Virus record (IMG/VR): IMGVR_UViG_3300042197_004513
Coordinates: 1-21,312 of that record
DNA: 21,312 nt
Reading direction: 5' to 3' (one strand)
From: a virus
Part shown: piece after piece, positions 913 to 21,312 of the stretch
How the letters are laid out: every line of letters starts with the position of its first letter
Position numbering within the stretch: position 1 is the stretch's first letter
The notes under the pieces: generated by a model
What the model saw: the letters and a program-made list of their open reading frames with translations, nothing else
Told to the model about the DNA's origin: nothing
Database searches by the model: none
Made by a program: the position numbers and the translations under genes

Positions 913-1446
913 ATGAAGTTCTATACTTGGCTAGACTTGAATGAATCAAATATAAGAGACTTGTACAGAAGCACAGTCAACGCTTTTCCAAGAACAAGGA
1001 AAAGACAACATTCTGTTCACGAAATATCTCTCACAGCATTAAATTTTGTGCCTTATCAAGGAGTAAGAACTTTATTTGTTAAAGGTTCTGCATACAATGA
1101 CGAGAAAGGAACTGCATATAATCCTATGATTTTGTTTAAAAATGTCAAATATCATAGCACAAGAGAAAAGAATTTGGCCGAGATTGTCGCAAGCAATGGA
1201 AGAAATTACTTTCTTGAAAAACTGAAATTGCAGCAGGATGTTGTTCTGCGTTGCAATTGTCAGGACTTTTACTGGCGTTTTAATTACGAAGACTATAAAG
1301 ATAGGTCTTTGTATGGAACTCTCAGAAGAAAGTATGAAGCGAAGTTTGATCCCGGTTCGACAAATCCATTGGAATTGCCGGGTATGTGCAAGCACCTCAT
1401 TAAACTTGCACAATCTCTCAATGACTTTGACATTCTGGAGGGTTGA
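913..1446 (+). CDS. SWIM-type zinc-finger protein
   Basis: The 177-residue protein carries a SWIM zinc-binding signature, CxCx(n)CxH: C114 and C116 (RCNCQDFYWRF), then C159 and H161 (GMCKHLIKL). The order and the hydrophobic context of the last pair are typical of SWIM domains, which in other proteins mediate DNA or protein binding. The 42-residue spacing between the two halves is long and contains a Tyr/Arg-rich segment, a layout also remembered from hypothetical proteins of marine T4-like phages. The N-terminus, MKFYTWLDLNES, resembles the capsid-targeting propeptides of T4 internal proteins (LNE followed by S fits the L-x-E cleavage rule), so it may be a virion protein. It overlaps the next gene by one base (TGATG). 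Confidence 0.75.
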   Translation: MKFYTWLDLNESNIRDLYRSTVNAFPRTRKRQHSVHEISLTALNFVPYQGVRTLFVKGSAYNDEKGTAYNPMILFKNVKYHSTREKNLAEIVASNGRNYFLEKLKLQQDVVLRCNCQDFYWRFNYEDYKDRSLYGTLRRKYEAKFDPGSTNPLELPGMCKHLIKLAQSLNDFDILEG

Positions 1447-3016: not shown

Positions 3017-3589
3017 ATGACATATCAATCTGGCCCTCAACTCAAGGATTCACAAAAACAAACCCTATATGGCACAATATTGGGAGGTTCTTCGATTATC
3101 AGGCCAGAAAGAGGCAAAAATTGTTATTTGGCCATGAGAGATAGCAATAAAACTTGGCTTGATTACAAAATAGAAGTGATGTCTGACTTTTTCAAGCTGG
3201 ATGGCCAAACAGTAAAACAAGACAAGAAAACATTCAGGTGTTACAGCATAGCTTATCCTGTTTTCAATGATGTATACAGAATATTCTATAAAGAAGGCAA
3301 AAAAATAGTCACAAAAGAAATTTTAGACATACTTTCAGATGAGGCGTGGATGACATGGTTTTTAGATGCTGGCAAAAAGACCAAAAGAAAGGCATATTTG
3401 AGAACACAAAAGTTTGGAAAGGAAGGAAGCGAAATAATAGCATCTTATTTTAATTCATTGGATTGTGATTGCGAAGTTGCCATAAACAGAAATAAAAGCG
3501 AAATAGTTTTTACAAATAAAGGCGCATTTGAATTGTTGAAATATGTTGCTCCCAAAATACCTCCTTGTATGCTGAATTTCATGGACTAA
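3017..3589 (+). CDS. LAGLIDADG-family (PF03161-type) protein lacking catalytic acids
   Basis: The 190-residue protein follows the LAGLIDADG DNA endonuclease layout end to end. A first motif sits at residues 17-26 (LYGTILGGSS), followed by the basic beta strands (YLAMRDSNKTWLDYK). A central block (YPVFNDVYRIFYKEGKKIV) leads to a second motif at 111-119 (WMTWFLDAG), and a final segment reads FELLKYVAPKIPPCMLNF. Active members carry an Asp before the Gly in both motifs (GDG and DDG). Here these positions read GGS and DAG, so both metal-binding acids are missing. It is therefore probably not a nuclease and may be a DNA-binding protein. It is preceded by GAGGAATAAC as ribosome-binding site. It stands alone between virion genes, not inside an intron. 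Confidence 0.8.
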   Translation: MTYQSGPQLKDSQKQTLYGTILGGSSIIRPERGKNCYLAMRDSNKTWLDYKIEVMSDFFKLDGQTVKQDKKTFRCYSIAYPVFNDVYRIFYKEGKKIVTKEILDILSDEAWMTWFLDAGKKTKRKAYLRTQKFGKEGSEIIASYFNSLDCDCEVAINRNKSEIVFTNKGAFELLKYVAPKIPPCMLNFMD

Positions 3590-3611: not shown

Positions 3612-3854
3612 TCATTGTTTTGGTGGAGGGGCTGCTGGAGCAGAACCACCACCTCCCCCTCCTTCACATGGGCCAGCACCACCTCCTTGACCACATAGCT
3701 TTGTTTCTCCTGCTAATGATCGAGGTGTAGGGTCTTTGGGACTTGGTCTTGGTTTTTGAGGAGCATTATCTCTTGGGCCGGGCTTAAAAGGATGTCCTTT
3801 TCCCTTGCTGGAATACATCTCTTCTAAATTCGTCAACCAACTTTTGAAATTCAT
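3612..3854 (-). CDS. Pro/Gly-rich low-complexity protein
   Basis: The protein has about 80 residues from the ATG at 3854 (MNFKSWLTNLEEMY). An in-frame ATG at 3878 would add eight residues, and neither has a clear ribosome-binding site. I favour 3854 because MNFKSWL matches the N-terminal pattern M-x-F-x-x-W/Y-L seen on other genes here. After about 20 ordered residues the chain is disordered: Pro/Lys-rich, then a Gly run (GPCEGGGGGGS) and a Pro/Ala end. Two Cys lie in the Gly-rich part. The composition suggests a flexible internal or structural protein. Function unknown. Confidence 0.55.
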   Translation of the reverse strand: MNFKSWLTNLEEMYSSKGKGHPFKPGPRDNAPQKPRPSPKDPTPRSLAGETKLCGQGGGAGPCEGGGGGGSAPAAPPPKQ

Positions 3855-3910: not shown

Positions 3911-4486
3911 ATGTCAGAATCATTCGCAGAATATTTCTCAAATAGAGACGATCAATATCTATTTGAACAAACAGATATACCCATGAAACTTTTAAGAGAA
4001 TCGTATATCAGCGAAAGACTTCAATATCATCTTGAAAATAATTTGTCACTCTCAAACACAGCTTATCGTTATGGAAGCGAATCATATTATGCTCTTGTTA
4101 ATGAAGTTCGTGACCTTTATCACAAAGGACTTATTGAGATCAATGCCCATGACAAGTTTTTTATTGATTCTGAACTAGGACTAGAAGCAGTTTACCATGG
4201 AAAAACTGTTAAACTAGACAGTCCTATGCGATCATCTGGCCCAAAGAAATATCAAGTTTTTGTGAACTCAGGTAGGAAAAACGCAAGCGGTGAAACAATT
4301 GCCAAGAAAGTTACTTTTGGAGACAGAAGCCTAAGCGTAAAAAATTACTCTGATGCAAGAAGAAAGTCATTCTTGGCAAGACATAAATGTAGCGAAAAGA
4401 AAGACAGAACAACACCGGGATACTGGAGTTGTAATGTTGGTCGTTACGCAAAAAAACTTGGACTTACTTCTTCTAAGAGATGGTAG
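3911..4486 (+). CDS. Phage protein with FLARHKC...GYWSC motif
   Basis: The 191-residue protein has a helical N-terminal half and a C-terminal module at about residues 133-174: KVTFGDRSLSVKN, RRKSFLARHKC, then TTPGYWSC. I recall this conserved module from many phage proteins of unknown role in marine and freshwater myoviruses, often in structural gene regions. The two Cys (160 and 174) with His158 could bind metal, but this is not established. The start ESFAEYFS resembles the SFLEYLS start of the flavoprotein at 5165 and may be a capsid-targeting peptide, although no L-x-E cleavage site is obvious. It has a good ribosome-binding site and a late promoter. It overlaps the cupin gene by 7 bp. Confidence 0.8.
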   Translation: MSESFAEYFSNRDDQYLFEQTDIPMKLLRESYISERLQYHLENNLSLSNTAYRYGSESYYALVNEVRDLYHKGLIEINAHDKFFIDSELGLEAVYHGKTVKLDSPMRSSGPKKYQVFVNSGRKNASGETIAKKVTFGDRSLSVKNYSDARRKSFLARHKCSEKKDRTTPGYWSCNVGRYAKKLGLTSSKRW

Positions 4487-5087: not shown

Positions 5088-5164
5088 TATATCAAATACT
5101 AATGTAATTTCAATGGAAGTCAAGACAAGAAACTATATATTCATGTACAAACAACTAGGAAAAA

Positions 5165-6031
5165 ATGATTAGTTTTCTTGAATACCTTTCTGAAGCCACT
5201 AAAAACAATGATGCACCAATCAAAATTGTTGCATTTCAAGGTAGCCCACGAACAAAAGATTCTTGTTCTGGTGGTGATAGCAAAACAGCTTTTCTTATGA
5301 ACAAAGCAATACAATCACTTTCCAAAGAAGTTAAGATTGATGTTATTGACCTCAAAGTCATGGACAATGAACCACAAATCCGTCCATGCAAAGGATGCAT
5401 TGGAACAAGCAATGGTTTTCATTGCCATTACAAATGTGATTGCTATGACAAAAATGATGGAACAAATGACCTCATGCACGAAAAAGATGTTTATGGTAAA
5501 TTAGAAAAAGCTGATGGATTTGTTGTTTTTACACCTGTTCATTGGTATGCACCATCATCCCAAGTCAAAGCTCTTTTTGATAGGCTTGTTTGTGTTAATT
5601 TAACTCTTAGCCGTGATGATGCTAAAAAACTTTATGGCAAGGATGTCAAAGACCCTAAGAAAACAATTCAAGCAGAAAAGTCTGGAAAGTATCGTGATTT
5701 GCTCAAAAACCATTATGAGGGAAAAGTTGCTGCCTTTTTTATTCATGGAGATGATGGTGCAGATGATTATGTTAACAGAAAAATGCCACTAAGCATGGCA
5801 GATATGAAAACAGAAGATTGTTGCACTCCAAAAGAAGCGATCATGCCTCTAGTTAATCAATGCCGATATTCTGGCATTTTTGTGCCTGAAAATTGCATAG
5901 AGGGCATTGTTTTTGGTTACAAGGAAAAGTATAGCCAAAATAACATTGATGTTCGTAAAAGCCAATTAATCGAAAAAGGAATCAAACTTATAAACAACTT
6001 GGTTGATGAAATTAAAAAGCGAAAAAACTAA
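5165..6031 (+). CDS. Flavodoxin-fold NAD(P)H/FMN oxidoreductase with T4 internal-protein-like N-terminus
   Basis: Residues 20-141 are typical of the NADPH-dependent FMN reductase / iron-sulfur flavoprotein superfamily. The phosphate-binding motif is GSPR at 26-29. There is a Cys cluster at 75-93 (CKGCIGTSNG, then CHYKCDC), and the segment ADGFVVFTPVHWYAPSSQVK leads into ALFDRL. The Cys cluster resembles that of iron-sulfur flavoproteins, so an Fe-S site is possible. The remaining 150 residues extend the flavodoxin fold with an insertion. The N-terminus, MISFLEYLSEATKN, precedes the domain and matches the pattern of T4 internal-protein capsid-targeting sequences (MKTYQEFIAEA type), with LSE before A as a fit to the prohead-protease cleavage rule. 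The ribosome-binding site is AGGAAAAA. Confidence 0.85.
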   Translation: MISFLEYLSEATKNNDAPIKIVAFQGSPRTKDSCSGGDSKTAFLMNKAIQSLSKEVKIDVIDLKVMDNEPQIRPCKGCIGTSNGFHCHYKCDCYDKNDGTNDLMHEKDVYGKLEKADGFVVFTPVHWYAPSSQVKALFDRLVCVNLTLSRDDAKKLYGKDVKDPKKTIQAEKSGKYRDLLKNHYEGKVAAFFIHGDDGADDYVNRKMPLSMADMKTEDCCTPKEAIMPLVNQCRYSGIFVPENCIEGIVFGYKEKYSQNNIDVRKSQLIEKGIKLINNLVDEIKKRKN

Positions 6032-6039
6032 TTTACATT

Positions 6040-6756
6040 ATGAAAATTTCAATGGTTATATGTCGTTTCAAAGAAGACTTGAGTTGGATACAAAACTTAC
6101 CAAAAGAAATTAATTTTATTGTTTTCAATAAAAACAAAGATGATATAGCAGTAGAAAATGCAACTGTTTACAATAAGTGCCAAAATATAGGTCGAGAATC
6201 AGAAGTTTATTTGCGATATATTTTGCAAGAATACAATAATTTGCCTGATATTATCATTTTCAGTCAAGGATATCCACAAGAACACAATAGAAACTTCAAT
6301 CACCTTGTTTACAAAATGGCAAAAGAAGGATTAGATAAAGACTTTTTTGTTCTTTCGAGTTATTGGCAAGACAATCAGTTCCCTCATCCAGACATTGTAA
6401 GATCGTATGAGGGAAATGCAAATTACATTGAAACTGCAAGCAGATATACTCTTTGTCCTCTAAAACATTGGGATGATGGCATTAGAGGAATTTATCATGA
6501 CTACTTTAGATTGCATTCAGAATTGAAAGCTGGAGATGACATTATCAATCACTTCTGTAAATTGATAGGACTGGAAGATAAGGAATTTGGTAGCAATCCT
6601 TTCTTTCAATTTGGATATTCTGGTATTTTTGCTGTTAAAAAAGAAGCTATTCTAAAACATCCAATCAACTTTTATTTCAACTGTTATAGCTTAAATAACA
6701 GAAATGACACTTATGGGTATTTCTTTGAAAGAACTTGGATGAAAATGTTTAGTTAA
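6040..6756 (+). CDS. DUF3431-type protein, probable glycan-modifying enzyme
   Basis: The 238-residue protein has the landmarks I associate with DUF3431: an opening strand with RFKEDLSWI, a YNK...NIGRESEVYLRYIL block at about residues 44-65, and DIIIFSQGYPQEHN at about 70-85. A C-terminal FGYSGIFAVKKEAILKHP follows, then FFERTW. Members occur in fungi, bacteria and large viruses next to glycosyltransferases and have a GT-A-like look, but their activity is not established. It follows the flavoprotein gene by 8 bp with no clear ribosome-binding site and opens the glycan island. Confidence 0.75.
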   Translation: MKISMVICRFKEDLSWIQNLPKEINFIVFNKNKDDIAVENATVYNKCQNIGRESEVYLRYILQEYNNLPDIIIFSQGYPQEHNRNFNHLVYKMAKEGLDKDFFVLSSYWQDNQFPHPDIVRSYEGNANYIETASRYTLCPLKHWDDGIRGIYHDYFRLHSELKAGDDIINHFCKLIGLEDKEFGSNPFFQFGYSGIFAVKKEAILKHPINFYFNCYSLNNRNDTYGYFFERTWMKMFS

Positions 6757-6761
6757 AAATA

Positions 6762-7616
6762 TTATGATTGATAACTAAATTTCTGTATAAATGAATCTAT
6801 GTAATCTTTAATTTCAATTTTTGGTTCCCAATCAATATATTTTTTTGTAGTAGCAATATTTGCTAATGTACAGTTACCTTCTCCCTTTCTCGCAGGTAAA
6901 TTTTTTATTTTTTTAATTTTAAACATATGTGCTATTTCGTTTATTGAGTAATTTCTGCCAAAGCCCAAATCAATTATTTCCTTAATGTTTAATTTAATGG
7001 TGCTATATAATCCTTCGCAAATATCATCAACATGAGTGAAATCTCGCCTCTGATTTCCAGAGCCATATATTATCACTTCATCATGATCAATAAAAGATTT
7101 TTCAATTAGCCCAATAAAACAAGCTTTTTCTCCATGTCTCAAATGATTGTTACCATAGACATTAAAAAGTCTTGCTGTTGTGATAGGTAGATCAAATGTT
7201 TCTTGGTACATTCGACAAGCTGATTCTGCTAAATATTTTGAGCAACTGTATGGGTTTAGATAGGAAGATGAATCGCAAGAACTAGATGAAATAAAAGATA
7301 AACTACAATTATTTTTACGACATGCGTCCAGTATTGAAATTGTTCCTTGTGTATTTACTAAGAAAAAATCTTTTGGGTTTTTAAAACTCATGCCAATTCT
7401 TGGCAAAGCAGCTAAATGAAAAACATGATTAAACCCAATTAAATCATTTGGTTCAATTTTTAAAATATCTTTTTCAATAATTTTTATTGACTGAGATAAT
7501 GTGAATTCTTGTTTAACATCACAATCCAGAGCAGTTACATTATGTTCTTTGTTTTTGAGAAAGTTGCAAAGGTTACTGCCTATATAACCACAACCTCCCG
7601 TTACAAGTATATTCAA
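6762..7616 (-). CDS. NAD-dependent sugar epimerase/dehydratase (extended SDR)
   Basis: This is a full extended short-chain dehydrogenase of 284 residues. The Rossmann motif GGCGYIG sits at residues 7-13, LAA follows at 68-70, and the catalytic serines are in the run FISSSS (around 108-113). The YxxxK pair is Y123/K127 (YSCSKYLAE). The substrate-side segment ARLFNVYGNN is followed by YGSGNQRRDFTHVDD (184-198), as in UDP-glucose 4-epimerases and related nucleotide-sugar epimerases. The exact sugar is not decidable. The start is TTG at 7616, chosen because an AGGAG ribosome-binding site precedes it with 7-nt spacing and the Rossmann strand begins immediately. It likely provides a nucleotide sugar for the neighbouring transferases. 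Confidence 0.9.
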   Translation of the reverse strand: MNILVTGGCGYIGSNLCNFLKNKEHNVTALDCDVKQEFTLSQSIKIIEKDILKIEPNDLIGFNHVFHLAALPRIGMSFKNPKDFFLVNTQGTISILDACRKNNCSLSFISSSSCDSSSYLNPYSCSKYLAESACRMYQETFDLPITTARLFNVYGNNHLRHGEKACFIGLIEKSFIDHDEVIIYGSGNQRRDFTHVDDICEGLYSTIKLNIKEIIDLGFGRNYSINEIAHMFKIKKIKNLPARKGEGNCTLANIATTKKYIDWEPKIEIKDYIDSFIQKFSYQS

Positions 7617-7636
7617 ATTTTATCTCCTATATTTAC

Positions 7637-8383
7637 ATGAGTTTTTCAAATAATGTTTGTAGTCTGTGGATAGGTAATTTACTTACTGATCTTGAAAAAT
7701 TATGTATAAATTCTTTTCTTCATCATGGTTACAAATTTAATTTGTATTCATATGAAAACATATTGAATATACCTACAGGAACAAATTTAATTGATGCAAA
7801 TAAAATAATTGATAAATCAAATGTTTTTTCTTATAAAACAGAAATTGGCAAAGGAAGTTTTTCCGCATTTTCAAATCTTTTTCGTTACAAAGTTTTGTAT
7901 GAATTAGGAGGAGTTTGGACTGATATGGATGTTGTTTGCCTTTCTCGTTTTGATGATATCAAAGAAATCGCAATCGCATCAGAAAAGAAATTTGATGGTA
8001 GTCAAAAGCCCACAAGTTGTTTTTTAAAATTTCCTGCTAAAAGTGATTTTCTTGAATTCTGCATAAATGAGTGTGTGGGGAAAAATTTAGAGATATTGAA
8101 GTGGGGAGAAATTGGCCCTGATCTTGTTGAAAAGTCAGTTAAGCGTTTCTCGCTCGATAATTTTGTTTTAGATCATTCATTTGCATGTCCTATCCAGCAT
8201 TGGAATTCTCAATTGTTTTTTGAAGACTTTGATTTTGTTTTTCCTAAGAAAACATGCCTGCTTCATTTATGGAATGAGATTTGGAGAAGAAGAGGATATC
8301 AGAAAAATTTTAAATATAAAAAAAATTGTTTGTATGAGATTTTAAAAGATAAATATTTAAGAAAAAAAATAATTATGTTATAG
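7637..8383 (+). CDS. Glycosyltransferase, DXD sugar-binding (GT32/capsular type)
   Basis: The 248-residue protein shows the signature of the sugar-binding-DXD glycosyltransferase family: an opening SLWIGNLLTDLEKLCINSF, then the diagnostic block FRYKVLYELGGVWTDMDVV with the metal-binding D96-x-D98. The C-terminal part has a W-x-x-H/Q arrangement (CPIQHWNSQLFF) and ends in a Lys-rich tail. Family members transfer a hexose from a nucleotide sugar, often in capsule or surface glycan synthesis. It is divergent from the epimerase gene with a 20-bp spacer. Its stop codon overlaps the end of the frameshifted methyltransferase on the opposite strand. Confidence 0.85.
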   Translation: MSFSNNVCSLWIGNLLTDLEKLCINSFLHHGYKFNLYSYENILNIPTGTNLIDANKIIDKSNVFSYKTEIGKGSFSAFSNLFRYKVLYELGGVWTDMDVVCLSRFDDIKEIAIASEKKFDGSQKPTSCFLKFPAKSDFLEFCINECVGKNLEILKWGEIGPDLVEKSVKRFSLDNFVLDHSFACPIQHWNSQLFFEDFDFVFPKKTCLLHLWNEIWRRRGYQKNFKYKKNCLYEILKDKYLRKKIIML

Positions 8384-8916
8384 TAATTTTATATGTTTGG
8401 GCTTTAACAAAAACAAATATTCTTTTATCCAAATTTTTTCATAAAGGCCTTTTTCAATTGATTTAAAAACCGCATTTTCTACACCATCAAGATGCATATC
8501 ATCTCCCAAAATCAAACCATCTGGTTTAGAATATGATGACACAATTTCAAATCGTTCAAAACAAATTCGTATTTATGACAAGCATCTAAATAAATAAAAT
8601 CTACTGTAAAATCCTTGAAATAACTTCTGACCTTTGATGATTTATCTTTTATTGTAAAAACTCTGTCACCAAGATTGTATCTTTTAATATTGTTTTGAAA
8701 TATATGAATTGGATGTTTTGTCCATTTATCTAAGCAATATAAATTTATATTTTTATTGTTAGATAGCATTTCAATAGCAGACCGACCATTTAAACTACCT
8801 ATTTCCAGCAATATGTGATTTTTGTTGTAATTTTTTGTAATTTCTTTAAAGGTTTCATAATGTTCATCAACCATATAGACTGGGCCTAGATCATCAAATT
8901 TTCCTGTTTTTGCCAT
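8378..8916 (-). pseudogene. Class I SAM methyltransferase with a single-base frameshift
   Basis: The first 125 residues from the ATG at 8916 have the AdoMet fold: motif I LLEIGSLNGRSA (36-47), an acidic LD at 62-63, and FIYLDACHKYEFVLNDLKL. That frame stops at 8512 after a nonsense-like tail. Reading one base back from about 8541, the same strand continues SSYSKPDGLILGDDMHLDGV, then ENAVFKSIEKGLYEK, to a stop at 8378-8380. This is just what this methyltransferase family (Methyltransf_24 type) has next. Adding one base (for example TG to TGG, giving LKLWSSYSKPDG) restores a 179-residue protein. It may be a real mutation, a programmed shift or an assembly error. The substrate is probably a sugar in this context. 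Confidence 0.8.
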
Positions 8917-8928
8917 AAATTATATATT

Positions 8929-9627
8929 ATGAAAATACCATTGGTAGTTGTATATTTTGATGAAAAACTTGATAAATCAAGAAAACATCATGAGGTAACA
9001 AATAAACTGATAAAACTATGGACTAGATTTTATAAAAAAAGCTTTCAAAACTTTCATCCAATGATGCTTCTAGATGTAAATACAGAAATTCCAAAAGATT
9101 GGCCTTATGATTGCATTAGAGTTGCTGATTCTGAACCCCCTTATAGATTTGATGTTTTGCATAAAGTCGGATGGATTAAATCGCAAGCATATGATCTTGT
9201 TGGCAAATGCATAGTTTGTGATTTAGACTGTATCTTCATCAAAAAATTTGATTACGATTTTTTAGATGATTATTCTATTGCCATGCCCGTTGATATATCA
9301 AAAAGGAAGTATAAAGATTGGCCTGATATTCAAGAAGAACTTAACGCCGGTTTCATTTTTCAAAATTCAAAAGATATAAGAAAAAAATTTATCAATCTTT
9401 GGTCGTCTAGATCAGATTACTCAAATATTACATATTTTGATGAAATAATATTTTCTTCAATTTTATTTGAACTTCAAGGAAAAGTTCTAGATAGTTCTTT
9501 TAATGTAAGTTGGGAATACGATGATGATGCACAACTATACAAAAAATTAATTGATAAAAATTCAAAAATATTACATTTTCATGGTAAAAGAAAAGAATTA
9601 ATTTATAAATCTTTACAAATAATTTAA
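8929..9627 (+). CDS. Putative GT-A glycosyltransferase (DLD motif)
   Basis: The 232-residue protein has a GT-A layout. An N-terminal strand (IPLVVVYF) is followed by conserved basic/aromatic residues and a metal-binding-like CDLDCIF at 97-103 after a hydrophobic strand. An acceptor-side ELNAGFIFQNS and a C-terminal ILHFHGKRK, whose His could complete the metal site, come after. This order (DxD, NAG-F/V-I, H-x-H-G) recurs in nucleotide-diphospho-sugar transferases of large phages and viruses. Donor and acceptor are unknown. It lies 12 bp from the divergent methyltransferase start and 7 bp before the next glycosyltransferase. Confidence 0.75.
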   Translation: MKIPLVVVYFDEKLDKSRKHHEVTNKLIKLWTRFYKKSFQNFHPMMLLDVNTEIPKDWPYDCIRVADSEPPYRFDVLHKVGWIKSQAYDLVGKCIVCDLDCIFIKKFDYDFLDDYSIAMPVDISKRKYKDWPDIQEELNAGFIFQNSKDIRKKFINLWSSRSDYSNITYFDEIIFSSILFELQGKVLDSSFNVSWEYDDDAQLYKKLIDKNSKILHFHGKRKELIYKSLQII

Positions 9628-9634
9628 GGCGCTT

Positions 9635-10321
9635 ATGGTAGTTGTTACAGGATCAAATCATATTTATAAAAAAATATTGAATTTATGTATTCGCTCTATA
9701 AAGAAACTAGAATATAGATATGTTGTTTATGATTTGGGCAATCTTAAATATGGAAAAAATTTTTTTGTAGACAACGAATCATTTCAAAAATATGGATTCT
9801 ATTGTAAACCATTTGATTTTTATCATTCAACTTGTTTGCATAAACCAAAACTAATATTGGATGCGTTAAACTCTAAACAAGAAAATTTAATTTATATCGA
9901 TTCTGATGTAATGTTACAAAAAAAAATTGATGATGTTTTCTACGAGGATTTTGATATAGCGGTTACGGTTAGAAGATCATGTGAAAATGAAAATGAACCA
10001 GTAGTTGAAAATAAAAAAATTATGGGATCAATAAATGCAGGCGTTATATTCATAAAGCCAACCAAAGCATCTTTTGATTTTATTCTGAAATGGATTGTTT
10101 TAACTGAATCATTACAAAATGACCAATGGGCACTTAATGAAATGATATCAAATGTAAAAAGAAATTGTGTTGTTGTTATAAATGGTGTAAGAATTTTGTG
10201 TTTAGAAACTGATTGTTATAATTTTTACTACTTCAATGAAGCCATCAGTAAAAATACAAAAATAATTCATTATAAAAACAAACAATTCAATCAGTTGTTA
10301 AAGCATAATTTGGTAATTTAA
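9635..10321 (+). CDS. Putative GT-A glycosyltransferase (DSD motif, GT8-like layout)
   Basis: The 228-residue protein has a strand plus DXD motif NLIYIDSDVML (D89-x-D91), then SINAGVIFIKPTK, NDQWALNEMI and a C-terminal IIHYKNKQF. This series (DSD, NAGV, DQ-x-x-LN, HY/HF-x-x-K) is the usual order in GT8-like and related retaining transferases. An AAGG ribosome-binding site lies close to the ATG. It is the second of three consecutive plus-strand genes ending with the inositol-oxygenase-like gene and is probably cotranscribed with them. Substrate unknown. Confidence 0.8.
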   Translation: MVVVTGSNHIYKKILNLCIRSIKKLEYRYVVYDLGNLKYGKNFFVDNESFQKYGFYCKPFDFYHSTCLHKPKLILDALNSKQENLIYIDSDVMLQKKIDDVFYEDFDIAVTVRRSCENENEPVVENKKIMGSINAGVIFIKPTKASFDFILKWIVLTESLQNDQWALNEMISNVKRNCVVVINGVRILCLETDCYNFYYFNEAISKNTKIIHYKNKQFNQLLKHNLVI

Positions 10322-10323
10322 TC

Positions 10324-10995
10324 ATGATGAAGTTCAATGTTCAACCTAAAAATAAATTTGATTTGTTGGCAAAACAAATCAAAGAAAAGCACTTTTCTCA
10401 AACAATTGATGATGTTATTTTTTTGAACAATAAATATAAAAATCCTATTTTTGGCAAATTAAAGTTATGGGACTTATTTCAGAAATTGAATTTTTGTATC
10501 GATCCAACTGATAAAATTTTATATCAAACAAACCAATTAATACATACCGCTCAGGTTTTAAAAAGTATGGAAATACAACAAATAACGGATGAAATGTTGT
10601 ATGTTACAGCAATATTGCATGATATAGGCAAGGTTTTGCTGCTTACAGAAGAAAATCCTTGCAATATTGTGTGTGATAATCAAATAATTGTCGCACACAC
10701 AAATAAATTGGGATTTGAAAATTGTTTTACAAATTGGAACCATGATGAAATAGCATATCAAAGATTGAAAGACTATATTCCAAAAGAATATTCATGGTTA
10801 ATCAGATACCACAGTATAAATATTGAAAAATCAAAATCATTTATGAATGAATATGATATTAAAATGTATCAAGAATTTTTACTGCCTTTTTCTAAGCATG
10901 ATAAAATGAGCAAGTCTCAAATCACGCCATCAATTAATTGGGATAAATATAGAAAAATGTGTGAGAAACATCTTCCAATAGAAATTATATTTTAG
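10324..10995 (+). CDS. Inositol oxygenase (MIOX)-like di-iron HD-domain protein
   Basis: The 223-residue protein follows MIOX from start to end. Its features in order are LKLWDLFQKLN, the helix IHTAQVLKS (H74), the HD motif LHDIGK (H99, D100, K103), the segment FTNWNHDEIAY (H140), and LIRYHSI (H163). NEYDIKMYQEFLLPFSKHDKMSKS (D193) follows, and the YRKMCEKHLP end matches the MIOX tail. All six metal ligands known from mammalian MIOX (four His and two Asp) appear to be present, as does the catalytic-site Lys. MIOX splits myo-inositol to glucuronate with O2. A different polyol or a PhnZ-like reaction is possible. An in-frame ATG at 10327 is an alternative start. It ends convergently with the next gene, overlapping by 4 bp. 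Confidence 0.8.
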   Translation: MMKFNVQPKNKFDLLAKQIKEKHFSQTIDDVIFLNNKYKNPIFGKLKLWDLFQKLNFCIDPTDKILYQTNQLIHTAQVLKSMEIQQITDEMLYVTAILHDIGKVLLLTEENPCNIVCDNQIIVAHTNKLGFENCFTNWNHDEIAYQRLKDYIPKEYSWLIRYHSINIEKSKSFMNEYDIKMYQEFLLPFSKHDKMSKSQITPSINWDKYRKMCEKHLPIEIIF

Positions 10996-11834
10996 ATTGA
11001 TACCTTTTTGCACCTATATAAGAAATCATCTAAATCTTTGCTATTTGCTATTGTATTTTTTTTTATGTTTGAGCCAAATTTTAAATTGATTCTAAATAAT
11101 ATCTTTTCTAATTCTTCTTCATTAATTTGATATTTTTCTATGTATTTATTTGCATTCCATATATTATGCAGACAAACTTCAAATTTATGTTTGTCATATG
11201 GATGAAACTGATGTAGTTCTAAAAGAGGAATAGGCCTTAGCAATTTGCTATTTTTCTTATAGACTTTCATAAAAAAGTCATAATCTGGATATCCCCATCC
11301 TTTAAACTCATTGCTAAATCCTCCTGCATTTAAAAATTCTTCTTTATGAAATCCAACCCCACCAGAGAATGGATTTTTTCTAGATAAAATAAAAGGATCA
11401 GAAATTCTAAAATCAGGACATAGATCGTTTTTGTATTTTTCCACATCTGTTAAAATTAATTTTAGTTCATTAATATTCATGTTTCTTTTAATTTGATATA
11501 AATCTGTCGCATAAACAAAAACACTTTCTTTCTGCAATATTTGCATACATATTTCAAAATATTTTTTTTGAACAACTCTGTCGCAATCAAAATAGAATAC
11601 AATTTCATTGGAAGATGATTGAACTCCTAAATTTATAACATCCGCCCAGCAGTAATATTTTGTTTTTCTTTCAACTTCAATTATTTTGAAATCATCAACA
11701 TTATGTAAAAGTTTTCCATCGACCAAAAGAATTTTTTCTGCTTCATAATATTCGCTTGCTTGTTTGAACAATTCAATTGAATTCCTAAGATATTCAATTC
11801 TATCATTTGAAAAAAGAACTATAATAGAGAACAT
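10992..11834 (-). CDS. Family 2/7C-like glycosyltransferase
   Basis: From the ATG at 11834 the protein is 280 residues and starts directly with the first GT-A strand (MFSIIVLFSNDR). A TTG further upstream at 11861 is in frame but adds a poor extension. The nucleotide-sugar part includes IVFYFDCDRVV (DxD at 83-85). The acceptor-side block FSGGVGFHKEEFLNAGGFSN followed by FKGWGYPDYDFF (157-188) is the GGF...GWG-x-(E/P)-D pattern of galactosyl/N-acetylgalactosaminyl transferases (GT7 C-terminal domain and GT27-like). The Glu usually found before Asp is a Pro-Asp here. The gene overlaps the preceding minus-strand gene by 16 bp and is probably coupled to it. Confidence 0.85.
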   Translation of the reverse strand: MFSIIVLFSNDRIEYLRNSIELFKQASEYYEAEKILLVDGKLLHNVDDFKIIEVERKTKYYCWADVINLGVQSSSNEIVFYFDCDRVVQKKYFEICMQILQKESVFVYATDLYQIKRNMNINELKLILTDVEKYKNDLCPDFRISDPFILSRKNPFSGGVGFHKEEFLNAGGFSNEFKGWGYPDYDFFMKVYKKNSKLLRPIPLLELHQFHPYDKHKFEVCLHNIWNANKYIEKYQINEEELEKILFRINLKFGSNIKKNTIANSKDLDDFLYRCKKVSI

Positions 11835-12538
11835 GATGCTTGCCTTAAGTATTTTTTCCAAAACTCATCCTTGCCTTTGTTTAGGCCAACAAAATGTACG
11901 CCACATGAACCTAGATTAAATTCTTCTGCCGTAACAAATATTTCGCTTGTATCGATTAATTCGCATTTGTATTTACTCATAATATGAGCTATCAATGTTT
12001 GTTCGCTAAAATGATCTTCCCATTTTATTTTAAATTTTTTGATATTATAATCAATTTCTTTTTCAAAATCATAATTTGGAGGAAGACATAATACACCTGT
12101 ATTTATGTTGAAATTATCCGGCACTAATTCTTCAAGGACACCATAATATGATCTTATAAAAGATTTTGTTAAAACAATGTCATTTGAACTTAGAAAGTTT
12201 ATGATTTTTTTTGGCAGCTTATACAATACAATATCGTTATCTAGTATTATTTCATGCGACTCTTTCCTTATTCTAGCTGGATATAATTTCCAAGCAGTTC
12301 CATATCTAGTTTCTGGTTTTAGTGTATCGTAAAGAAATGAATATGATTCCGCATCAATAACAATGTCAACTTTGGGAAGACTATCCATTTGGTTTTTCGT
12401 TAAATTGTTATAACATATCGCATATTCGCATGTGCAACCTAAAATTCCTTTCATTAATTCAACTGATTTTATCAAACAATCAAAGCCACAGTCAGAAACT
12501 GATCCTACTGTCCATCTAATTAATGGTTTTTGATGCAT
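11819..12538 (-). CDS. Putative glycosyltransferase (DND motif)
   Basis: The 239-residue protein begins with a short strand (LIRWTVGSVSDCG) and has a basic helix with TAWKLYPARIRK leading to EIILDNDIVLYK. The DND at 100-102 is placed like a GT-A DxD. Later come NINTGVLCLP and a segment HFSEQTLIAHI, like the DQ-x-L-N acceptor-side block. The end, CGVHFVGLNKGKDEFWKKYL, has the terminal H-F-x-G pattern. This layout supports a GT-A transferase of no assigned family. Its ATG and the ATG of the divergent gene share the hexamer ATGCAT. Confidence 0.7.
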   Translation of the reverse strand: MHQKPLIRWTVGSVSDCGFDCLIKSVELMKGILGCTCEYAICYNNLTKNQMDSLPKVDIVIDAESYSFLYDTLKPETRYGTAWKLYPARIRKESHEIILDNDIVLYKLPKKIINFLSSNDIVLTKSFIRSYYGVLEELVPDNFNINTGVLCLPPNYDFEKEIDYNIKKFKIKWEDHFSEQTLIAHIMSKYKCELIDTSEIFVTAEEFNLGSCGVHFVGLNKGKDEFWKKYLRQASCSLL

Positions 12539-13171
12539 AAATTATTTATGTGCCATCAAATCCTATTCGTTTTATACCATGATTCCATAGAAACTAAATT
12601 TCTAAATGAACCAAGTATAATTCCTATAAATTTAAACAAAATTAACATAGGAGAATATCAAACAAATCAATTAGCAGAATCAAGATTCTTTTTTTCCGAT
12701 ATAGCTGAGAATTATAATTCTGAATATGTTGGCATTTTTTCTTACAAACACAATAAAAAATTTCATAAATTAATGTGCCTTCAATCCCTACATCGTTTGC
12801 AATTTCAAAAAAATGTTATATGGGCACCTTATGTTGCATCTGAAGATTGGGCTTACAAAAGTGAAATTAGCCATTCTGGCATTATGAAGTATATTGAAGA
12901 ATTAGCCTTAATCAATAATTTTGAAATGAATAAAAAAAATGGCGTGTTTTGCAATAGTTTCTTATGTCATATGGATGAATACATAAAGTTTAAAAAATTT
13001 TTTGTTCGTAATTTTATGCATTTTTATAAAAAATATGGTTATGATATGGAATATTCTGGCGGCTTTAAAAACAGACATGCTAACTACTTTTACGAAAGAT
13101 TTGCCACAATTTATTTTTCAAATTCACAACTAATTGTAAAAAAGCTACCTTATAAAAAATTTTTTTTATGA
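12533..13171 (+). CDS. Putative glycosyltransferase-like protein (DUF4422-like features)
   Basis: The start is taken as the ATG at 12533; an ATG at 12548 is also possible, and neither has a clear ribosome-binding site. The protein has about 212 residues. The phrase NQLAESRFFFSDIAENYN followed by SEYVGIFSYK, near residues 40-75, and the late segment ANYFYERFATIYFSN recall the (N-x-L)-E-R...Y-x-G-x-x-Q/H-Y-R and ERL blocks of DUF4422 proteins, a glycosyltransferase-like group. I see no clear DxD. It is coupled to the next gene by ATGA. Function is not certain. Confidence 0.55.
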   Translation: MHKLFMCHQILFVLYHDSIETKFLNEPSIIPINLNKINIGEYQTNQLAESRFFFSDIAENYNSEYVGIFSYKHNKKFHKLMCLQSLHRLQFQKNVIWAPYVASEDWAYKSEISHSGIMKYIEELALINNFEMNKKNGVFCNSFLCHMDEYIKFKKFFVRNFMHFYKKYGYDMEYSGGFKNRHANYFYERFATIYFSNSQLIVKKLPYKKFFL

Positions 13172-14175
13172 TAAAAATACAATTTATATTTGGCAATCAA
13201 GGAACTGAAGTTTCAGAGCCACAGCCATTACTGAAATACAATTTAGAAAAATATTACATCAAAATCGTAAAAAAAAATCCAGATTTGTTATTTATACATA
13301 ACAGATTGTTAAACAACAGTCATTCAAAAATACCAAAGGTAATTGTTGAGCGAGCAGATTCATCCGTGATATTTCATGAGCAGGTAAGAGAGCTAATTAG
13401 AGACGATAAAACACTTGCAATAATTAAGACTACAGCCACACATGATAAATCATTAAACAATTCTTTAAAGTGCAATAGAAGATATCATTGTTATATTATA
13501 AATCAATTTGCCAATATATTAGAAAATGAACCAACAAAAAATTTTTTAGACGAAAAAAGTTTGAAAAAAATACATTGTTTAATACCGACATCTGTTCAAA
13601 ATAGATTTTATTGGTATAAAGAACAACCTCCAAAAAAAAATAAACCTATAGATGTTTCTTTTGTTGGTGTAACTAGTTACCCAAACATAAAAGGAATTAA
13701 TGTTATGGATTGGCATAGAAATAAACTTGTAGAAGAATTAAAAAAAATCAATGGAATAAATTTATTTTATGTTACTTCAGAAGCTGGCAAATCACATCCA
13801 TTGAAAGAATTTGATTACAAAAATGTTGTACAAAAAAGTAAGATAATTATCTCGCCTTGGGGCATGGGAGAATGGAATTATAGAGACTTTCATGCCATGT
13901 ATCAAAATTGCATACTTATTAAGCCAGATAGCAGCCATGTAGAATGTTATCCAGTTGACATATTTGCAAACAATGAAAGGTATGTTCCATGTAAAATAGA
14001 TTTCTCAAATCTAAAGCAAAAAATAGAATCTATTCTAGATGAATATAAAAAATATCAAACAATGATGGAAAAAAATCGTGATGATTTAGTAAAATCTTGG
14101 GATTTTCAAAAACTATCAGAAGAATTTGCTTTTTTTGTTTTCAACATTATTGAACCAAAAAAGATGTTTTTATGA
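13168..14175 (+). CDS. GT-B / exostosin-like glycosyltransferase
   Basis: The 335-residue protein has a Rossmann-like N-terminal half with strands at DLLFIHNRLL and PKVIVERADSS. The second half carries the typical nucleotide-sugar site of CgeB/exostosin-type transferases: VSFVGVTSYPN, then KSKIIISPWGMGEWNYRDFHAMYQ, and CILIKPDSSHVECYP, with Glu and Gly residues placed as in GT-B donors. A helical tail (DDLVKSWDFQKLSEEF) follows. Donor and acceptor are unknown. It overlaps the neighbouring genes by 4 bp on each side (ATGA), so three genes are translated as a unit. Confidence 0.75.
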   Translation: MIKIQFIFGNQGTEVSEPQPLLKYNLEKYYIKIVKKNPDLLFIHNRLLNNSHSKIPKVIVERADSSVIFHEQVRELIRDDKTLAIIKTTATHDKSLNNSLKCNRRYHCYIINQFANILENEPTKNFLDEKSLKKIHCLIPTSVQNRFYWYKEQPPKKNKPIDVSFVGVTSYPNIKGINVMDWHRNKLVEELKKINGINLFYVTSEAGKSHPLKEFDYKNVVQKSKIIISPWGMGEWNYRDFHAMYQNCILIKPDSSHVECYPVDIFANNERYVPCKIDFSNLKQKIESILDEYKKYQTMMEKNRDDLVKSWDFQKLSEEFAFFVFNIIEPKKMFL

Positions 14176-14882
14176 AAAAATTAAAATATTTAGTAACAGG
14201 AACAGGAAGAAGTGGAACAGTTTACATGTCTAGACTATTGACCAATATGGGTATAATGTGCGGACATGAATCCATTTTTACTCCCCTTGGATTTGAAGAA
14301 GCAAAAAACAGAATTAAAAATCCACAACTTATTAGAACAAGTAAAGTTTCAATGATGGATAAAGGATTTTTATTTGATTCAAATATTCAAATTGCAGAAT
14401 CAAGCTATATGGCGGCTCCATACATAAATCAAGAAATTTTAAAAAATACAAAAATAATACATGTTATGAGAAATCCAATTAAATCTATAAGTTCTACTTA
14501 CTATGATGCAAATTTTTTTGCTGCAAACAATCAAGGAGGAAAAAAATACGCAAATTTTGTTGAATCACATTTACCTGAACTTAAAAACATAAACAATAGA
14601 TTAGAAAAAAACATTAAATACTATTTGCTTTGGAATGAAATGATACAAGAAAAATGCAAAAATGCTAATTTTATTCTGCACAAAATAGAATTGGGAATAA
14701 CCAAAGAACTCTTAGATTTTCTTGGTGTCGAAAACAATAAAAATATATTTCTAAGCAATAAAATAAATTGTTGGAATAAAAGAAAAAGAGACATTTGTTT
14801 TGATGAAATCCAAGACTTTGAAATTAAAAAAAGACTAGCTCAATTTATGAAAAAATTTAGTTATCACAACATTTTATATTAG
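14172..14882 (+). CDS. PAPS-dependent sulfotransferase-like protein
   Basis: The 236-residue protein opens with the 5'-phosphosulfate-binding loop of sulfotransferases (YLVTGTGRSGTVYMSRLL, residues 6-23). It later has the 3'-phosphate-binding strand-loop KIIHVMRNPIKSISSTYY, the standard pair for PAPS binding. The helix YYLLWNEMI and the end FSYHNILY match small prokaryotic and phage sulfotransferases. It would transfer a sulfuryl group to a sugar or other acceptor, consistent with the preceding glycosyltransferase to which it is coupled by ATGA. PAPS would come from the host. Confidence 0.85.
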   Translation: MKKLKYLVTGTGRSGTVYMSRLLTNMGIMCGHESIFTPLGFEEAKNRIKNPQLIRTSKVSMMDKGFLFDSNIQIAESSYMAAPYINQEILKNTKIIHVMRNPIKSISSTYYDANFFAANNQGGKKYANFVESHLPELKNINNRLEKNIKYYLLWNEMIQEKCKNANFILHKIELGITKELLDFLGVENNKNIFLSNKINCWNKRKRDICFDEIQDFEIKKRLAQFMKKFSYHNILY

Positions 14883-14903
14883 ATTTGTGTATAGCAACTT
14901 TAA

Positions 14904-15548
14904 TCATTTAACATATTTATTCATATTCTCCCACATCTCAACATCCTCACAATAATACTTATTTATCCTCTCAACCTGCTCTGATGTCAAAACAGGCTTC
15001 ACATTCTTTCCCTCATTAACTTTAGGCAATGGCCATTCCAATTCAGCATCCTTGCATAATTGCTCTAATTCACAAGGAAACTTGTATATTTTTGTAATTC
15101 CCGCTATCAACCATGATTGCTTGATGAAATGTGTGTTATTTCTTATTTTTATAGGCAAAGATTCTAAAACATATTCCTGATCATCACTTTCCAATCCCGT
15201 CAATAATCTATCAATGTCCTGACCCAAATATGAAGCACCCGACAAAAAACGATCAACAGGATCACGAAACAATAACAAAACAGTTGACTTGGGTTCTCTT
15301 GTTATTGTACACAAATTCTGCCAAAATGAAATAGAATCATTCATGTCAGAACGAAACATCCTCTGAAAACTTTCAGGCAATGATGCCTTGAATTCATCAC
15401 TAAATTGTGACCAGTTTTTTTCATATTCATCCAAAACCCTTTGCAAACGCTCTGGATGATACTTCCTAACAATAGATGATGCCAAGGCCGATGAAGCAAC
15501 CTTGGCATTAAATGCTATACAACAATGTGGCAACTCAAAATACTGCAT
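14904..15548 (-). CDS. Carbohydrate sulfotransferase-like protein (Sulfotransfer_2 type)
   Basis: The 214-residue protein shows the other main sulfotransferase layout: an early loop CCIAFNAKVASSALASSI (9-26), equivalent to the F-x-x-x-PKVAsts motif of carbohydrate sulfotransferases, and LLLFRDPVDRFLSGASYL (91-108) for the 3'-phosphate of PAPS. The C-terminal VERINKYYCEDVEMWENM is the usual ending, I-x-x-x-Y-x-x-D-x-x. It is not closely similar to the sulfotransferase at 14172 and faces it convergently. It has an AAGG ribosome-binding site. The acceptor may be a glycan made by the island. Confidence 0.85.
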   Translation of the reverse strand: MQYFELPHCCIAFNAKVASSALASSIVRKYHPERLQRVLDEYEKNWSQFSDEFKASLPESFQRMFRSDMNDSISFWQNLCTITREPKSTVLLLFRDPVDRFLSGASYLGQDIDRLLTGLESDDQEYVLESLPIKIRNNTHFIKQSWLIAGITKIYKFPCELEQLCKDAELEWPLPKVNEGKNVKPVLTSEQVERINKYYCEDVEMWENMNKYVK

Positions 15549-15577
15549 ACCTTAAATGAGTTGCTTATATTCAAATT

Positions 15578-15916
15578 TTAGCCATTAGAAGGAGCAACAG
15601 GTGCTGGTGCTGGTGCTGGTGCTGGTGCTGGCTCAACAGGAGCAGGAGCAACTGGTGCTGGTGCTGGTGCAGGCTCAACAGGAGCAGGAGCAACTGGTGC
15701 TGGTGCAGGCTCAACAGGAGCAGGAGCAACTGGTGCTGGTGCAGGCGAACCTACCATCTCAATTTCAGCCTTGGGATTAGCCTTCTTGAAACGCTCAACA
15801 CACTTTTCCAAACCCCCAGCCCTATCAACTACTTCCTTTGACCACTTGGAAATAATATTGTCTTCCTTGTCCATAACAACATAATGAGTTTCTTCTGTTT
15901 TAACCTTGAACTTCAT
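15578..15916 (-). CDS. Small protein with Ala/Pro/Val/Glu repeat tail
   Basis: The 112-residue protein has a compact first half (MKFKVKTEETHYVVMDKEDN through AEIEMVGS), probably a small beta/alpha domain, and a tail of PAPAPVAPAPVEPA repeats ending APSNG. Such rod-like Ala/Pro tails often act as spacers or linkers. It has a strong GGAG ribosome-binding site and overlaps the preceding gene by 17 bp. Function unknown. Confidence 0.8.
   Translation of the reverse strand: MKFKVKTEETHYVVMDKEDNIISKWSKEVVDRAGGLEKCVERFKKANPKAEIEMVGSPAPAPVAPAPVEPAPAPVAPAPVEPAPAPAPVAPAPVEPAPAPAPAPAPVAPSNG
15597..15748. repeat. Imperfect 30-36-bp and 6-bp tandem repeats encoding APAPV...EP
   Basis: On the plus strand the unit GGCTCAACAGGAGCAGGAGC followed by AACTGGTGCTGGTGCA recurs three times. 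At one end a simple GGTGCT (6-bp) array expands it. All lengths are multiples of three, so copy number can vary in frame. Confidence 0.8.
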
Positions 15917-16310
15917 TTTTAGGTCTCCTTTTCACATGATAAATGCTATCTTTTTCTTCACATTCAAATCCATAGTATTTATACCATTTCAATAATCTTT
16001 CCAAATCCAATCCTGTATAAAACTTGCCATCACCAATAACAGATGGGCCAACAACATTAGGCTGCGCCTTTCCTGTTATCACTATACCATGCCCATCAGC
16101 TAAACTACAAAGAAATACTAATGTTCTATTTGCACCTATTCCATCAAAAGAAATTATATTCTGTACCCTAAATTCATCTGGCTCTATAAACCTACACTTC
16201 AAAAGTGTTGTTCCATGCTTGTAGTGATATCCAGAAAATTCCCCATGTGTCCAATGATGTCCACATGGGGCGCAATTTCTTTCAAACTCTTCCCTAAAAT
16301 GAATTATCAA
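15900..16310 (-). CDS. Unknown small protein, TTG start
   Basis: The 136-residue reading frame contains no internal Met, so the TTG at 16310 is the only sensible start. It overlaps the TGA stop of the upstream tagged gene (TTGA), a coupling that makes it credible. The protein has a His/Cys-rich N-terminus (NCAPCGHHWTHGEF), a beta-rich centre and a Tyr-rich helix followed by YYGFECEEKDSIYHVKRR. The last part looks faintly like the C-terminal strand of GNAT acetyltransferases, but this is too weak for a call. Confidence 0.7.
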   Translation of the reverse strand: MIIHFREEFERNCAPCGHHWTHGEFSGYHYKHGTTLLKCRFIEPDEFRVQNIISFDGIGANRTLVFLCSLADGHGIVITGKAQPNVVGPSVIGDGKFYTGLDLERLLKWYKYYGFECEEKDSIYHVKRRPKNEVQG

Positions 16311-16654
16311 GGTGTGTAATCACTTGTGAACAATGATGAAGGACTCTTGATTACAATAAAATCAACATCCCTCTTCTTTGCACCATCAATCTCAAAACTC
16401 TCCACAAGACCATCACCATCAAGATTCTTGGTAATACCATATGACTTGCCAGAACAAAGAATTGTCAAATTCTCAGGCAAATCCTTGATGTCTGATGGCA
16501 AATCAATAGTGGCAGTTCCACCATCAAGGTAAATCTTACCATGAAAAACAACATGAGGATCAAGCAAAGATTGATACTGATCACGATTATTTCCCGGACC
16601 ACGGGTAGCTCCCGCTGATCCCGGCCCAACTCCCGTAACTGATGTGGCTCCCAT
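16307..16654 (-). CDS. Third MGAT-tagged virion-type protein
   Basis: The ATG at 16654 gives 115 residues starting MGATSVTGVGPGSAGATRG, clearly the same N-terminal tag as in the proteins starting at 2338 and 2898. The rest is unrelated in detail: a Gly/Asn linker, then VFHGKIYLDGGTATIDLPSD and FIVIKSPSSLFTSD, a small beta structure. A longer frame from 16702 is rejected because it crosses the late promoter. A GGGGGGAAATATT leader supplies the ribosome-binding site. It heads a minus-strand group continuing to 15578 by coupled or overlapping genes, probably expressed late. Confidence 0.8.
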   Translation of the reverse strand: MGATSVTGVGPGSAGATRGPGNNRDQYQSLLDPHVVFHGKIYLDGGTATIDLPSDIKDLPENLTILCSGKSYGITKNLDGDGLVESFEIDGAKKRDVDFIVIKSPSSLFTSDYTP

Positions 16655-16687
16655 AATATTTCCCCCCAAATAAAATACAGACAAACT

Positions 16688-16695
16688 ATTTATAA
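16688..16695 (-). promoter_or_regulatory. T4-type late promoter element TATAAATA
   Basis: An exact consensus octamer on the minus strand, 34 nt upstream of the ATG at 16654. It implies a leader of roughly 28 nt carrying the G-rich ribosome-binding site. Confidence 0.65.
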
Positions 16696-16742
16696 CTTCC
16701 AATCAAGAATTCATTATCTATTCTGGTGAAATTTATTCCAAA

Positions 16743-17012
16743 TCACCTATTCACTATTTTTTTGCAAAAAACCTCATTGCCACTCAAATCAAATGCAACA
16801 ATCTCTATTTCAGGAACATCAAATTTCATTCTCTTAAACTGCTCAATCAAAATATTTCCATAATCCAAAGCCTCTCTTATCATCTGACAAATAAAATCAC
16901 GATTTTTTCCAACATAACCATTAGACAAATCAAAGTCATCAGTTTGTACAAACCTTCCATTCTCAGTAAAACGAAGTTTGTACTCACGAATTGAAATTTC
17001 ACCAAATGCCAT
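16743..17012 (-). CDS. Small unknown protein, paralog of the gene at 17122
   Basis: The 89-residue protein MAFGEISIREYKLRF... aligns with its upstream neighbour: REYKLRFTENGRFVQ against GRYQIRFRNGRFVVI, and the helix-strand ICQM...IEQFKRMKFDVPEIEIVAFD against ICQMRLLMEEYRKAKLDMPIFEIVGFD. The shared core is a strand with NGRFV, a helix starting ICQM, and a final strand EIV-F-D. I do not recognise the family. An AGGA ribosome-binding site precedes the ATG. Confidence 0.75.
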   Translation of the reverse strand: MAFGEISIREYKLRFTENGRFVQTDDFDLSNGYVGKNRDFICQMIREALDYGNILIEQFKRMKFDVPEIEIVAFDLSGNEVFCKKIVNR

Positions 17013-17013
17013 A

Positions 17014-17406: not shown

Positions 17407-17481
17407 GAAATCACCAAAAGCATTTCTAAAAACAATAACATCAATTCAATTAATTTCAAGCAAAATTTTCAATTATCGACC

Positions 17482-20319: not shown

Positions 20320-20349
20320 ATTACACCTCTGTTTTTGCCCCACAAAGGT

Positions 20350-20484: not shown

Positions 20485-21312
20485 TTAGATAACAAAATTC
20501 GCAATCGACAGGCGGGCGTAAAATTTTGCCCCCTCACGGAGCAACTTTTTTCCGTATCGAGTCAAAATTCCTTTTCGTGGACAAAATGACTCTGGATCGA
20601 GGACAACAGGTGTCTGAGTCAAAGGAACATATGGGCAGTAGAAGTAACCGCTATCCATATAGCTATCTCCCTTGTAGCCAAGGAGAAGCTGATTGCTTGG
20701 GAAGAGGGGGTCTTTGTAGAGTCTCCAGCGATTGTTCACGGTGCCGACATACTGGATGCCAAGGCTTGAGGTGAAGGTTTCGGAAGGAGCGGGAGCGAAG
20801 CCAGCGGTAGCTGTTTCAAAGATTGAAGCAACTTCGGGGCTGGTGACGATCCAGTTAGCGCCACCACGGAGTGTCTTCCTGTGGATGACATTGGAAATTT
20901 CGACAACCTTAACATAAAGGCTTTCGTACTTTTCCTTGATGGTTTCGCCAAGAGCGGTGTTGAAGTCCCAAGCAGAGACAGTACCGGCGTTGTTACGGAG
21001 GTCGGTGAGGACTTCACGGTCGATTTCGAGGTTGATTTCCTGAGCGAGAACAGCGGTCAACTCAGCTTCAGCGTCGAGGTTGTGCTGTGAGCGGAGGTCT
21101 TGCTGTGCTTCATAAGACCAAACAGCCTTGAGCTTACGGGTTCTAGCAGCGATCTCTTCTGATTCAACGACAAGGTTGATCTCAGGAAGGTCTTGATTGC
21201 ACTCCATATTGTACTCATAGGAGCAGACCACATTATTTGAACCGGGAGCGGCGTTCCAAGTAAGTGTGAGTTCGCCTGTGGTGGTATTGAGGCTACCAGC
21301 AGTACACTTAGG
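20485..21312 (-). CDS. Major capsid protein, gp23-type (C-terminal part, 5' end outside window)
   Basis: The frame runs to the right edge of the window and supplies 275 residues of the C-terminal part. It reads PEINLVVESEEIAARTRKLK, AVWSYEAQQDLRSQHNLDAE, NFTALGETIKEKY-type helices, ANWIVTSPEVASIFE, SLGIQYVGTVNNRWRLYKDP, LLLGYKGDSYMDSGYFYCPYVPLTQTP, and a final RYGKKLLREGAKFYARL. These correspond to the conserved HK97-fold segments of T4-like gp23: the LPEI...TRKLKA...DAEAEL block and the YVPL end. The protein would form the hexamers of the prohead. Third-position G/C is clearly higher than in the neighbours, consistent with high expression. The gene is followed by a strong terminator. Confidence 0.9.
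   Translation of the reverse strand, partial: PKCTAGSLNTTTGELTLTWNAAPGSNNVVCSYEYNMECNQDLPEINLVVESEEIAARTRKLKAVWSYEAQQDLRSQHNLDAEAELTAVLAQEINLEIDREVLTDLRNNAGTVSAWDFNTALGETIKEKYESLYVKVVEISNVIHRKTLRGGANWIVTSPEVASIFETATAGFAPAPSETFTSSLGIQYVGTVNNRWRLYKDPLFPSNQLLLGYKGDSYMDSGYFYCPYVPLTQTPVVLDPESFCPRKGILTRYGKKLLREGAKFYARLSIANFVI

Follow-up and report, generated by a model that had tools for sequence, protein, structure and literature searches.

A T4-like capsid-targeting peptide predicted at the N terminus of a phage flavin reductase

Described head-entry signals and the reductase locus

A described signal for protein entry into a phage head is the capsid-targeting sequence (CTS) of bacteriophage T4. 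The first 10 residues of internal protein IPIII suffice for entry into the T4 head; residues 4 and 7 serve in targeting and residues 8 and 10 in processing, and cleavage by the gp21 protease follows an L/I-x-E sequence (PMC9026906). As read from AF158101, IPII and IPIII start with MKTYQEFIAE followed by A, and IPI starts with MKTFKEF. The propeptide of Alt is shorter.

Two other systems are comparable. Giant phages of the SPN3US/phiKZ type contain many internal proteins with N-terminal propeptides that are cut by the prohead protease (PMC5694885). These injected inner-head proteins resemble the array of tagged proteins described below in their number and in carrying propeptides, but several of the propeptides exceed 100 residues, unlike the 10-residue tag. 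The polyvalent proteins of phages and conjugative elements include enzymes that are thought to be delivered with the incoming DNA (PMC5512222). They are large multidomain proteins, whereas the tagged phage cargo is encoded by separate genes that have only a short N-terminal tag in common.

The stretch of viral DNA analyzed here (the window, 21,312 nucleotides), from a giant T4-like phage, encodes a flavin reductase whose N-terminal peptide, MISFLEYLSE, shares with the T4 CTS the 10-residue length, the aromatic residues at positions 4 and 7, the aliphatic residue at position 8, and the Glu10-Ala11 pair (Table 1). The L/I-x-E cleavage rule and a phage family with gp23 and a gp21-type protease are also common to both. 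The cargo differs, being a flavin reductase in the window and small basic proteins in T4.

Table 1. Features of the window discussed in the text
Feature	Position	Strand	Description
Flavin reductase ORF	5165-6031	+	288 aa, ATG start; protein begins MISFLEYLSEATKNNDAPIKIVAFQGSP
Capsid-targeting-like propeptide MISFLEYLSE	5165..5194	+	Residues 1-10; from translation, comparison with T4 IPIII, and conservation in homologs
Predicted prohead-protease site E10/A11	5192..5197	+	L-S-E then A fits the L/I-x-E rule; conservation of E10
Flavodoxin-like FMN/NAD(P)H reductase domain	5219..6028	+	Residues 19-288; Pfam FMN_red, Flavodoxin_2
Late-promoter-like TATATA element upstream of the reductase gene	5131..5141	+	AACTATATATT
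Second tagged ORF	913..1446	+	MKFYTWLDLNES; aromatic residues one residue earlier; relatives MKFHQWLDLKES, MKFHNWLELNES
Small tagged ORF, if the ATG at 3854 is used	3612..3854	-	MNFKSWLTNLEEMYSS; relatives start MNFKEWFYEIEE, MNFKNWLNQIEE
Weaker tagged ORF	3911..4486	+	MSESFAEYFSNRDD; aromatic residues at 5 and 8; relative MSESFHEYVNNRED
Major capsid protein gp23	20485..21312	-	Runs off the window edge; Pfam Gp23, 3e-68

The enzyme and its N-terminal peptide

The reductase matches the Pfam family FMN_red (NADPH-dependent FMN reductase) from residue 19 onward (2e-14; 53.9 bits against a cutoff of 24), with Flavodoxin_2 as the second match. An AlphaFold model based on 13 phage homologs (mean pLDDT, 83; pTM, 0.82) replaced a single-sequence model that was unusable (pLDDT, 41). 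It predicts a separate N-terminal helix at residues 4 to 12, followed by the first β-strand at residues 19 to 25. Foldseek matches of this model include azoreductases, human NQO2, and SsuE and cover the flavodoxin fold, the best being to paAzoR1 (E value, 2.6e-7). This fold is common to the phage enzyme and the NAD(P)H-dependent FMN, quinone, and azo reductases of these two Pfam families; the phage enzyme adds to it a conserved Cys-rich motif and the head tag. Six Cys residues (34, 75, 78, 87, 91, and 93) are invariant across all 13 homologs, with the spacing C-x2-C-x8-C-x3-C-x-C. This spacing is unlike the textbook 4Fe-4S motif of iron-sulfur flavoproteins; the cysteines are inferred to form, possibly, a metal or Fe-S site. 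A phmmer search found no PDB chain, and neither NCBIfam nor PHROGs assigned a family. One pattern-based scan of cellular genomes gave no cellular relative, which left no host enzyme against which to set the tag.

Residues F4, Y7, L8, E10, and A11 align position by position with the determinants in T4 IPIII. The two aromatic residues needed for targeting are present as F4 and Y7, and the processing determinants are present as the aliphatic L8 and as E10 followed by a small residue, A11. The tag is also removable and separate from the cargo, as the domain starts at residue 19 and tagless homologs exist. The preliminary description had likened this N terminus to the CTS of the T4 internal proteins, fitted its L-S-E-A sequence to the gp21 cleavage rule, and placed the peptide outside the flavodoxin fold. 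All three points are borne out: the match covers the mutationally mapped positions 4, 7, 8, and 10, plus position 11; the L-x-E site followed by A is present, and E10 is invariant in ten homologs; and both the Pfam domain and the first model strand begin only at residue 19.

In viral homologs with about 80% identity, the N terminus reads M[IR]SF[LI]EY[LI][AS]EAT. More distant tagged homologs, down to 48 to 49% identity, start with MRSYAEYLAEA, MKTFVEYLAET, MKTFAEYLVEA, MKTFAEYLAEA, or MRDFLQFLSEE; MESFNNYIESK, from a homolog with 54% identity, is a weaker case. Compared at the codon level, ten tagged sequences always have Glu at residue 10 (encoded by GAA and GAG), only L or I at residue 8 (six codons), and only F or Y at residues 4 and 7. 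Residue 11 is mostly A, and residues 2 and 5 are freer. Retention of the tag despite this codon divergence points to selection on the peptide and to more than a common origin in the recent past.

The tag is absent from three distant homologs. Those at locus L065 and in the 735-kb phage LR756501 begin with a short leader in which the motif is missing (MKVKKL..YN.K), and the one at L066 starts directly at the fold. The LR756501 homolog, 46% identical, is untagged although this phage has a shifted tag array of its own, so the enzyme exists both with and without a head address. According to the preliminary description, alignment of homologous N termini would be informative, and homologs lacking the peptide in other phages with the same capsid system would refute the idea. 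In this alignment the tag is kept down to 48 to 49% identity in phages with the same gp23/S77 system but is missing from the three distant homologs. Tagless cases are limited to the more distant LR756501, G013, and G014, where the capsid genes are weak and diverged or were not found.

Head genes and possible packaging of the reductase

The window gp23 shares 91% identity with its counterpart in LR756511, an uncultured phage of 595 kb. Every record with a tagged homolog that is large enough to cover gp23 contains it (G003 and G008 to G012), and five of these six also encode the gp21-type protease S77, the exception being the 11-kb G009. The prohead protease is absent from the 21-kb window; the head system of this phage is represented by gp23 in the window and by S77 and gp23 in relatives with the tagged gene. 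LR756501 yields only diverged matches (gp23, 6e-24; S77, 24 bits, below the cutoff). Neither gene was found in the available parts of G013 (54 kb) and G014 (139 kb), whose homologs are untagged. In the gp23 proteins of the group, N-E is conserved close to where the cleavage site of T4 gp23 aligns, and FLNE followed by A occurs near the N terminus; cleavage at these sites is an inference. An interrupted (intron-containing) gp23 was considered and dropped, as the gene simply runs off the window.

The capsid-targeting interpretation in the preliminary description is supported at the sequence level, and the window itself contains gp23. Residues 1 to 10 of the reductase are likely to be a functional T4-type CTS, with the enzyme packaged, cut after Glu10, and delivered to the host. 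The observations concern the tag and how it is conserved and used across an array of proteins, together with the capsid and protease genes of the relatives and the enzyme fold; targeting, cleavage, ejection, and the role in the host are inferred from them. The reductase would be made late in infection, and the F4/Y7 face of its short N-terminal helix would bind the scaffold core of the assembling prohead. Assembly of gp23 would enclose the protein, and a cut after Glu10 by a gp21-type protease would free it from the core, so that the mature enzyme, starting at Ala11, would remain beside the genome in the head. Like the T4 internal proteins and Alt, it may then be ejected into the next host, where its most likely function, ahead of phage gene expression, would be redox chemistry of the quinone/flavin or another NAD(P)H-dependent type. 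In these phages it would belong to a large set of tagged cargo proteins. Several points count against this reading: no virion proteomics for these uncultured phages exists in the material searched, the specificity of S77/gp21 in the window phage is inferred, and the enzyme, at 31 kDa, has to exit by way of the portal, probably in an unfolded state.

The tag might also bring the enzyme into the prohead for a role in head assembly or maturation, such as redox control of Cys residues or protection of the packaged DNA, and not as an injected effector. In T4, IPIII is packaged and also has an influence on head assembly (PMC9026906). The reductase gene of G003 belongs to the structural region, with gp23 about 14 kb away, and in G006 and G007 the gene is near the protease. 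In G012, however, it is about 70 kb from gp23, and no specific sequence evidence speaks for an assembly role, which we consider unlikely.

Tagged proteins in related genomes and other genes of the window

Use of the tag by many proteins, missed in the preliminary description, is stronger evidence for a CTS than the single peptide. The idea of an array came from reading N termini in the related genomes G001 to G003; LR756511 and G012 were unseen when the criterion was set and serve as held-out tests. The T4-derived criterion, an aromatic residue at both positions 4 and 7, was applied at every offset, with the mean at positions 20 to 49 as background. ORFs were called mechanically (greedy ORFs in 20- to 50-kb pieces), and gene starts are predicted, not measured. 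LR756511 has 41 ORFs with the pair starting at position 4 against 8.6 expected (p, 7e-16), and G012 (459 kb, of which 400 kb was read) has 30 against 5.9. The counts are 14 against 2.0 in G002, 12 against 0.6 in G001, 4 against 0.5 in G003, 7 against 2.2 in T4, and 5 against 2.0 in cyanophage S-SSM6b. The same scan shows no spike in RaK2 (8 against 7.1), Immutovirus (2 against 1.7), or phiKZ (2 against 2.8), which in this respect is unlike the related tagged phages. The two aromatic residues co-occur above their marginal frequencies in LR756511, G012, G001, and G002 but not in the controls.

The 101 ORFs picked only by residues 4 and 7 are enriched in K/R2, T/S3, E/Q6, L8, E9/E10, and E12. An [LI]xE sequence is found within residues 8 to 18 in 42 of them (42%), compared with 191 of 1755 untagged ORFs (11%; p, 3e-14), and at residues 31 to 41 in only 3 of the 101. 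A strict CTS score retrieves 56 ORFs (23, 14, 8, 7, and 4 in five related genomes) against about 1.2 expected from internal positions, exceeding all 300 N-terminal shuffles in each genome. It finds 3 ORFs in T4, the number expected from IPI to IPIII, and none in phiKZ, RaK2, or Immutovirus. This scoring scheme was written after the enrichment table had been seen, and the 4/7 scan is the cleaner test. When residues 1 to 20 are left out, the 56 proteins form 51 clusters with no relation to one another, which shows the tag to be modular. The array differs from the T4 set in that residue 7 is most often W and in its size: tens of tagged genes per giant-phage genome, whereas the scanned 150 kb of T4 yields three genes with high scores.

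LR756501 has an array shifted by one residue from the T4 CTS. In its first 400 kb, the aromatic pair is found at positions 5 and 8 in 46 ORFs against 5.7 expected, and the held-out remaining 335 kb replicates this (38 against 5.0; p, 2e-21). In all, about 84 ORFs (loci L075 to L094 and L167 to L183) carry the shifted tag, with the rough consensus M-I-K-K-[FY]-x-x-[FY]-I-N-E or, more loosely, M-I-K/T-K-[FY]-x-x-[FY]-x-N-E.

RaK2 and Immutovirus lack a tag array despite having gp23 and S77, which means that an array does not follow from the head system by itself. This leaves some room for the motif being an amphipathic docking helix for a target other than the prohead (a membrane, a host protein, or the phage replication compartment), given that the peptide is predicted to be a short helix and that its tie to the head is only bioinformatic. 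Against such a helix stand the residue-by-residue match to the T4 CTS, the coupled L/I-x-E cleavage element, and the occurrence of the tag with gp23/S77 heads and its absence from phiKZ and the untagged homologs, and we regard it as improbable. Chance resemblance, with a neutral leader on an ordinary auxiliary reductase working in the infected cell, could cite the motif-less starts of the L065, LR756501, and L066 homologs but is strongly disfavored by the 56 strict matches in five genomes and by an invariant E10 and consistently aromatic or aliphatic residues 4, 7, and 8 despite divergent codons.

With a capsid-targeting sequence on the reductase as the preferred reading, the evidence leans, though only slightly, toward a broader hypothesis: in giant gp23-type phages, a large share of the genes (tens in each genome, and about 84 with the shifted form in the 735-kb phage) may bear a generic T4-like N-terminal head-entry code. 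Each of their virions may carry a delivered proteome of enzymes, among them the flavin reductase, a CCA-adding enzyme, and a 2H-type phosphodiesterase, to act in the host before phage transcription. If so, a 10-residue tag would allow those proteins of uncultured giant phages that ride in the head and reach the host first to be predicted from sequence. In each genome, dozens of unknown genes would become testable candidates for injected effectors or counter-defense factors, with a redox enzyme among them, and the mechanism described for the three internal proteins of T4 would be extended to a genome-wide strategy. CTS arrays in huge phages were not described in the open-access literature searched, which is no proof of novelty.

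Recognizable tagged cargo includes a CCA-adding-type enzyme (PolyA_pol/HD) and a tRNA-ligase-type (2H) phosphodiesterase. A 720-aa tagged protein of G012 (L105:9335-11494, minus strand; MKSFNEWLVES) contains an HD domain and the PolyA_pol domain of CCA-adding enzymes, which suggests that a tRNA repair function is delivered. Tandem tagged paralogs in G002 (L013:9687-9905 and 9908-10213; MNTFVKWAEKTKKELP and MKSFIQWAGDNKAELP) suggest that tagged cargo genes duplicate. PADLOC found zero defense matches among 53 tagged proteins. A second N-terminal motif, [YF]L[AS]G[VI][IL][SN]E, recurs on several ORFs, with 7 matches at N termini and 0 in internal windows of the related genomes (L011:1328, L013:13664, L019:14856, L024:14963, L024:15583, and L024:17901), plus one more in a Flavobacterium phage; it is possibly another head-entry signal.

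A TA[AT]ATA element resembling the T4 late promoter precedes the reductase gene, most of its tagged homologs, and the other tagged genes of the window. Its enrichment looked strong before operon position was controlled for. Among genes with an intergenic gap, it lies upstream of 15 of 51 tagged ones versus 115 of 927 (p, 0.0015 overall after the control), which is modest and only supporting evidence for the CTS.

Between the reductase and head genes (6040-18120), the window contains ORFs that by eye resemble glycosyltransferases, an NAD-dependent epimerase, and sulfotransferases. The window also has two genes of the homing-endonuclease type. One, beside gp23 (18790-20370, minus strand), encodes a composite protein that matches the HNH/homing endonuclease, Mom-like, and endonuclease VII families. 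The other, at 3017-3589 (plus strand), encodes a LAGLIDADG protein.
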